DNA of 41,493 nucleotides from the NCBI GenBank assembly GCA_030693415.1, contig JAUYAR010000112.1, positions 1 through 41,493 of the forward strand. The letters are read 5' to 3'. Every line of letters starts with the position of its first letter. Within the stretch, counting starts at the first letter, position 1. The notes under the pieces were generated by a model. It made no database searches and was not told the DNA's origin. It worked only from the letters and a program-made list of their open reading frames with translations. This stretch comes from Candidatus Cloacimonadaceae bacterium (GTDB lineage: Bacteria > Cloacimonadota > Cloacimonadia > Cloacimonadales > Cloacimonadaceae). The position numbers and the translations under genes are program-made. Below are positions 16,840 to 18,960 of this stretch, one piece after another.

Positions 16840-17988
16840 GTGCAATCTCAATTAGATTTATTCATACCAACACCTGATCATGATTATGATATAGAAGAAA
16901 ATCCACTATACTTATCAACCCAACTCCTTACCTATATCGGTAACAAAAGGAGTTTGCTCGGGTTTATCGGTCAAGGGGTTGCCATGGTTCAGAACAGGCT
17001 GAATAAAAAGAAGTTGAGAACATTTGATGTCTTTTCTGGGTCTGGTATAGTTGCTAGGTTTCTGAAACAATTTTCCAGCATGATGTATGTTAGTGACCTG
17101 GAGAAATACTCTTATGTAATCAATGAGTGCTACCTTACCAATAATGCTGACTTTAATTCTCTTCTTTACGACAGTATTTTTCGGGAGATAAAATGGAACA
17201 TTGAAGAACATGGCTTACGAGAGGGGTTGATAAGAAAGCTATATTCACCCCAAGATGATAAAATGATAGTAGCTTCCGACAGAGTATTTTACACAAATAG
17301 AAATGCCATGTATATTGACACCGTGCGTTCATACATAGAGGATGTTCCACCAGAAATGAAGAAGTTTTTATTAGCTCCACTCTTGGCAGATGCGTCAGTT
17401 CACAGCAATACATCTGGAGTCTTTAAAGGATTCTACAAGGATTCTGAGACAGGAGTAGGCCAGTTTGGCGGCACTAATCAGGACGCTCTGAAGAGGATAT
17501 TGGGTAATATTGAACTGAAAAAACCCGTACTAAGCAACTTTGAATGTGATTATCTGGTTTTTCAAGAAGATTCTAACAAGATAATCAATGAACTCGAGGA
17601 GGTCGATTTAGCCTATATTGATCCACCCTATAATCAACATCCTTATGGGTCAAATTACTTTATGCTTAATCTGATTGTAGATTATAAAGAACCACAAGAG
17701 GTTAGCAAGGTGTCCGGCATTCCTAACACCTGGAATAAATCTCTTTACAACAAAAAACGGAGCTCATTTGCTGCATTTAGACAATTGATCGAGGATGTCC
17801 GGGCGAAGTACATACTGATTTCATTTAACTCGGAAGGTTTTATCAGTCTGGATATGATGACAGAATTGCTGAATGGTATCGGCAAACTTACGGTTTTAGA
17901 AACAAAATACAATACCTTTCGCGGCTGCAGAAACCTTCATAATAGGGAAAAGCATGTGAAAGAGTATTTATACTTATTGGAGAAATAA
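16840..17988 (+). CDS. D12-class DNA adenine-N6 methyltransferase (type II R-M)
   Basis: 382 aa, GTG start with AAAGGAG 5 nt upstream. Motifs in alpha-class order: TYIGNKR (motif X, residues 31-37), DVFSGSG (motif I, 63-69), IDPPYN (motif IV, D261-Y264) followed by QHPYGSNYF. These define a Dam/D12-type N6-adenine methylase. The stop codon overlaps the start of the EcoRI-like endonuclease gene (TAATG), so the two form an operon. With that partner, the target probably contains the core AATT. The region is visibly more A+T-rich than the surrounding genes, as expected of a transferred cassette. The methylase looks complete and likely still protects the chromosome. Confidence 0.9.
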   Translation: MQSQLDLFIPTPDHDYDIEENPLYLSTQLLTYIGNKRSLLGFIGQGVAMVQNRLNKKKLRTFDVFSGSGIVARFLKQFSSMMYVSDLEKYSYVINECYLTNNADFNSLLYDSIFREIKWNIEEHGLREGLIRKLYSPQDDKMIVASDRVFYTNRNAMYIDTVRSYIEDVPPEMKKFLLAPLLADASVHSNTSGVFKGFYKDSETGVGQFGGTNQDALKRILGNIELKKPVLSNFECDYLVFQEDSNKIINELEEVDLAYIDPPYNQHPYGSNYFMLNLIVDYKEPQEVSKVSGIPNTWNKSLYNKKRSSFAAFRQLIEDVRAKYILISFNSEGFISLDMMTELLNGIGKLTVLETKYNTFRGCRNLHNREKHVKEYLYLLEK

Positions 17989-18692
17989 TGAGCGATAAGC
18001 ACAGACTCAGAAAAACCAGAGAGAGCACTGTAATCAACACGACATCCAAGAAGCAAGAGACAGACCTAACCAAGGCTTTAGAAAGAGTATTAACCGATCT
18101 GCGGGACAAATATTAGATTCGCATTGTTCACTCCAATAATTGGTATTTACGAGACATAGTTGCTGTATTAAGAGAGAGATATCCGGAAGTTGAATGGTAC
18201 AATAAATTTGACTCCTCAAACATGAAACCAGATGGTGGTATTGTGTTTATCAAAGATAACGATGATAAGAGTTACCCCATATTGATATCGGAAGCCAAAA
18301 ATCAGGGAACTAATGATTTGCGGGCTGAGGAAGGATTGAAAAAACAGGCTCATGGAAATGCAGTTGAAAGATTAGGGAAAAATGTGATTGGTTTCAAAAC
18401 AGCGGTGATGTTTGAGTCGATATTCCCTTTTGTCTGCTTTGGTTATGGTTGTGATTTTGCCGATGGTTGCAGCATTATTGATCGAGTAGTTACAATTGCC
18501 ATGTTTTCAGAGTTAAATGTTGTAAGATTACATAATGAAGGCGCAAGCCAGCAGGTTAATCGTGGCAGCTTTTTCTTCCGCAAGGAAAAATGGTCAGAGA
18601 CCGAAATGTACAATATCATGTTTGATATTGCAGACAGGAGCATATTGTATTACTTTTCCAAATATAAACAGGAGAACTTTGTCACCCAATAG
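17988..18692 (+). pseudogene. EcoRI-family restriction endonuclease interrupted by one in-frame amber codon
   Basis: The frame from the ATG at 17988 encodes 42 residues, meets TAG at 18114-18116, and stays open in the same frame to 18692 (234 codons in all, counting the TAG; EcoRI has 277 aa). After the stop it matches what I remember of EcoRI: KPDGGIV, ISEAKNQG, HGNAVER, a FPFVCF segment and IMFDIADRSI. Counting the amber as codon 43, the catalytic residues are D82, E102 and K104, with the same spacing as EcoRI D91/E111/K113. The GNA-x-ER motif equals the EcoRI/MunI residues that read AATT. A single CAG or TGG to TAG change would explain the break. The gene is probably inactive unless the amber is suppressed. 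A restart at the ATG at 18222 would begin just before the catalytic aspartate. Confidence 0.85.
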
Positions 18693-18960
18693 AGCAAGAA
18701 CATCTTCATGCTACCGGTTTTTTTGAAAAACACCTAATGTGTCTGGGATTCTTTTTGGCAACCTAGTGTCAACTATATTAGGACTTGACAAGAACTGAAT
18801 TTGGACGCTGTCCTTGGTATGCAGTGCTCCTGAGCAGCATTGGGTTCCAAAGAACTAAATCAAACATAACCCGCAAGATAGACCGATTTGGCACAGATTG
18901 TGCTTGACATGAGTATCTATCGGTAAAGCTTGACCGAAAGGATATTGAAGGGAGGATATT
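18693..18960. other. Spacer between the R-M locus and a lipoprotein gene
   Basis: No gene seen. It contains two TTGACA hexamers (near 18784 and 18905) without convincing -10 boxes, and a small hairpin (TGCTC-ct-GAGCA near 18824). The spacer ends with GGGAGG upstream of the ATG at 18961. Confidence 0.4.

Follow-up and report, generated by a model that had tools for sequence, protein, structure and literature searches.

An EcoRI-like endonuclease gene interrupted by a single TAG beside an intact D12-class adenine methylase gene in a Candidatus Cloacimonadaceae genome: a probable incipient orphan methylase

A two-gene type II restriction-modification (R-M) cassette was identified within a 41,493-nucleotide stretch of DNA from a Candidatus Cloacimonadaceae bacterium (contig JAUYAR010000112.1; this whole stretch is referred to as the window). 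Its D12-class N6-adenine methylase gene is intact, and the EcoRI-family endonuclease gene that follows is interrupted by one in-frame TAG. We consider it quite probable that this low-G+C cassette was acquired horizontally, that its endonuclease gene recently gained a nonsense mutation at codon 43, and that the locus represents an incipient orphan methylase. Translation from the endonuclease start would then halt after a helical peptide of 42 residues that contains neither catalytic nor DNA-contacting parts, and hence, no restriction would be expected; the methylase, which has an upstream start of its own, would be expected to go on modifying the DNA of the host. The features concerned are as follows.

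16840-17988, plus strand: D12-class (Dam-like) N6-adenine DNA methyltransferase, 382 amino acids, intact (Pfam, PADLOC, relatives)
17988-18692, plus strand: EcoRI-like endonuclease frame, broken once (reading frame, Pfam, PDB, relatives)
18114-18116, plus strand: in-frame TAG at codon 43, at the turn that joins predicted helix 18-42 to strand 44-49; sense in relatives
18222-18692, plus strand: frame from M79, 156 amino acids, the sole frame still open past the stop that has a usual start codon; lacks residues 1-78
18231-18299, plus strand: catalytic D82, E102 and K104 of the PD...(D/E)xK site (alignment with EcoRI and homologues)
18354-18371, plus strand: GNA-x-ER, G123-R128, equivalent to EcoRI G140-R145
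18756-18794, plus strand: 39-bp terminal remnant of a repeat, just 3' of the endonuclease gene, with copies elsewhere in the genome

The endonuclease frame comprises 234 residues, and translation confirmed that the TAG at codon 43 is its one internal stop (the terminal codon is also TAG); a random 234-codon frame of the same G+C content would contain one stop or fewer with a probability of about 2e-6. Its start codon shares bases with the methylase stop codon (TAATG), and GGAG is found a few bases 5' of it. A profile search with the frame, in which an X was placed at the internal stop, matched the Pfam EcoRI family (PF02963) at 3.4e-15 (56.3 bits, where the cut-off is 22); in a sequence comparison with the PDB, EcoRI chains were matched at about 2e-11. 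The predicted structure of the read-through protein (mean pLDDT of 76) matched five EcoRI entries with E-values of about 1e-13 and a TM of 0.71, and only EcoRI entries reached E < 0.001 in this structure search. Poor alignment with EcoRI, which the original prediction had named as grounds for abandoning the assignment, was thus not encountered. Alignment with EcoRI and the homologues described below also bore out the two sets of key residues proposed at the outset: the catalytic D82, E102 and K104 are spaced by 20 and 2 residues, as in the D91/E111/K113 triad of EcoRI (PMC4081073), and the GNA-x-ER segment is conserved. Pfam score, fold, PD...ExK spacing and GNA-x-ER all place the frame in the EcoRI family of type II endonucleases; its coding sequence, however, is interrupted at codon 43, and consequently it is a member of the family by descent and probably not a working enzyme.

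The methylase gene begins with a GTG preceded by a good ribosome-binding site, and its product carries the motifs YIGNKR, DVFSGSG and DPPY. It matched the Pfam MethyltransfD12 family at 5.3e-19 and the PADLOC type II MTase model at 1.2e-121. With the D12 profile, motifs I and IV (DPPY) and its full length all present, it was assigned to the type II D12-class N6-adenine methylases; that this overlapping gene is intact, as predicted, was confirmed by Pfam, by PADLOC and by alignment over its full length with an enzyme from Paracoccus. The type II cassette looks horizontally acquired. The two genes have a G+C content of about 38% compared with 45-55% in the flanks, and they lie between a gene for an RlmL-like rRNA methylase on one side and a gene of no known family, followed by an M16 peptidase gene, on the other; a search for an empty insertion site did not reveal one, since the flanking genes were located on separate contigs in the relatives. 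Just downstream of the endonuclease frame lies the 39-bp repeat TGGCAACCTAGTGTCAACTATATTAGGACTTGACAAGAA, which recurs at about ten other sites of the genome, in most cases with a contig ending about 100 bp away. It is probably one end of an insertion sequence whose copies interrupt the assembly; the body of such an element was not found behind it, as the other copies run into contig ends.

The same order of methylase and endonuclease genes was found in five relatives, namely a plasmid of Paracoccus marcusii, a Chthonomonadia MAG, two Poribacteria genomes and an IMG/VR contig. Their endonucleases are 51-57% identical to that of the window and their methylases 45-55% (45% over the full length for the Paracoccus plasmid enzyme and 52-55% for the others), and all five endonuclease genes are free of internal stops. 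Opposite the TAG, the relatives carry two or three residues that vary in both kind and number, and the window has nothing but the stop codon; the site is an indel-tolerant loop leading from the predicted first long helix (18-42) to the first strand (44-49). Given this variation in residue and length among intact homologues, the earlier expectation of a Gln or Trp at codon 43 could not be sustained. An intact conspecific allele was not found: the genus is represented by a single genome, and no near-identical DNA was present in the genome, viral and plasmid collections searched. Within the phylum, just one other of 125 genomes gave an EcoRI-like match, which is of a different type. That gene (L010:1240-1653, genome G114) is much closer to EcoRI itself, and its frame, which ends after 137 residues, may be broken too.

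Outside codon 43, the window protein retains 80 of the 92 columns that are invariant in the five relatives, its 12 changes being mostly conservative; by the same test, the intact Paracoccus protein is changed at 14 of 94. In a simulation of neutral drift, 0.1 substitutions per site left the frame free of further stops with a probability of 6% and preserved about 79% of the conserved residues; any unconstrained divergence was thereby limited to roughly 0.05-0.1 substitutions per site. With a frame as conserved as those of intact relatives, the lesion must be either recent or an assembly error. We regard as unlikely the latter alternative, namely that the TAG is an error of the consensus or assembly, or was captured from a minority strain, and that the endonuclease of the population is intact and working. 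The frame is otherwise indistinguishable from that of an active, fully functional gene, and the TAG is known from one assembly, fragmented into 185 contigs, of the only genome in its genus, with no conspecific record for comparison; on the other hand, the site contains neither a homopolymer nor a repeat that might have favoured an error, an assembled consensus seldom has substitutions, and the relatives also have loops of other lengths, so that the TAG is not one odd base in a perfect context. Neither was a phase-variable repeat seen at the stop on inspection by eye.

Production of an active endonuclease despite the TAG was also considered. That the codon is translated, by a suppressor tRNA, as pyrrolysine or through strong near-cognate read-through, to provide a low level of full-length enzyme as a tuning device, would accord with the retention of conserved residues past the stop and with its position in a loop predicted to tolerate an inserted residue, but it is judged very unlikely. 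The genome, which is estimated to be 99.8% complete, encodes RF1 (above the curated cut-off), and TAG is a common terminator, ending 8 of the 32 tabulated main genes of the window. None of the 45 tRNAs located by Infernal, all of which were assigned anticodons by ARAGORN, has the anticodon CUA, in a list that is slightly incomplete in that tRNA-Ala(TGC) and tRNA-Ile(GAT) were not found; a scan for CUA anticodon-arm patterns returned no tRNA among its matches, which were fewer than those of the reversed control. No PylS was detected in the genome above the cut-off, the single match falling far below it and being of a cross-matching type that 13 of the 14 control genomes also gave, and not one of the five homologues has a stop. 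Suppressor tRNA, pyrrolysine and loss of RF1 were therefore each rejected, and the gene has neither mark of amber recoding. The narrower proposal that selected, low-level read-through at the tolerant loop maintains a trace of endonuclease, making the stop an attenuator of restriction and not a lesion, is in our view highly improbable. The same applies to a shorter endonuclease arising by re-initiation at M79, of which we think there is scarcely any prospect: although the ATG-started frame stays open through D82, E102, K104 and GNA-x-ER, no ribosome-binding site was seen upstream of 18222, and the product would begin only three residues ahead of the catalytic D82. It would also be deprived of the first long helix, the first strand and the second helix, which make up the first third of the fold in a prediction of good confidence, and all intact relatives are full length.

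A recent loss of restriction by nonsense mutation, with the methylase kept, accordingly remains the best-supported reading, as the methylase is intact, no other damage to the endonuclease frame is seen and the homologues are intact. This was one of two interpretations originally offered; the other, amber suppression, found no support in the tRNA, PylS, RF1 and TAG-usage results above. Both had been thought unusual for the family, a view that does not hold for loss, since a route of decay has been described (PMC6471742) and an orphan methylase occurs in a related genome. Fullmer et al. (PMC6471742) reported that the stepwise loss of R-M systems begins with inactivation of the endonuclease, and a survey is cited there for the observation that orphan methylases adjoin degraded endonuclease genes. 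With Mycoplasma agalactiae, a premature stop was found to disrupt hsdR, and type I methylation was still detected (PMC9465063). The related genome, of the same family as that of the window (G043, L016:1495-2601), encodes a D12 methylase that is 55% identical to the window enzyme and has no endonuclease gene beside it. This orphan is flanked by genes of amidohydrolase-like and ABC-F type, and an apparent tRNA gene follows just downstream.

With respect to specificity, an AATT core in the recognition sequence is at most a reasonable inference. The residues ahead of GNA-x-ER, however, are KQAH in the window protein and LMAA in EcoRI-type enzymes, and hence, recognition of a G:C outer base pair is not to be assumed. 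GAATTC occurs 9 times in the window against an expectation of 11.6, with no clear avoidance.

Several other EcoRI-like genes were noted. A protein of 417 residues encoded by IMGVR_UViG_3300024261_000980 (L035:4001-5254; the same in L034) has an N-terminal EcoRI-like endonuclease and C-terminal adenine-methylase motifs, including NPPF, with weak Pfam matches to Eco57I, N6_Mtase and EcoRI_methylase; it is an apparent natural fusion of an EcoRI-family endonuclease with a methylase, and a C5 methylase gene lies nearby on the same contig (7285-8427). Many IMG/VR contigs (L036, L038, L039, L041 and others) encode members of a family of EcoRI-like endonucleases that start with MSSSDRLRETHKKIGGG and share about 31% identity with the window protein; none was detected in the annotated phage collection. 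Two further EcoRI-like genes (L042:917-1387 and L043:1138-1608) encode about 30 extra residues resembling a helix-turn-helix immediately before GNA-x-ER.

Among known systems, the window endonuclease shares with EcoRI and RsrI (PF02963) a significant sequence and fold match, the same triad spacing and the same GNA-x-ER segment, but its identity to EcoRI-type enzymes is only about 23-30%, and its frame is interrupted by the TAG. On the EcoRI-type plasmids examined, the nuclease is partnered by an EcoRI-type methylase, whereas the sub-branch found here couples an EcoRI-like nuclease to a Dam-like D12 methylase and moves with it between distant phyla; this pairing is mildly new and a minor point of interest. 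The pair on the Paracoccus marcusii plasmid pCP157_17 (WP_245008591 and WP_217847105) has the gene order and overlapping start of the window pair and is 45% (methylase) and 51% (endonuclease) identical to it over the full length, but its endonuclease gene, carried on a 6-kb plasmid, is uninterrupted. The window cassette is thus probably an ordinary type II system that was inactivated recently. Although it represents a common process at an early stage and leaves the understanding of translation and of the EcoRI family unchanged, it would provide a clean snapshot, in an uncultured lineage, of the first step from an R-M system to a solitary methylase. Like the orphan, or solitary, methylases of decayed R-M systems, the window enzyme is intact beside a disabled endonuclease; unlike in those systems, the endonuclease gene is almost undamaged, which would place its decay at a very early point.
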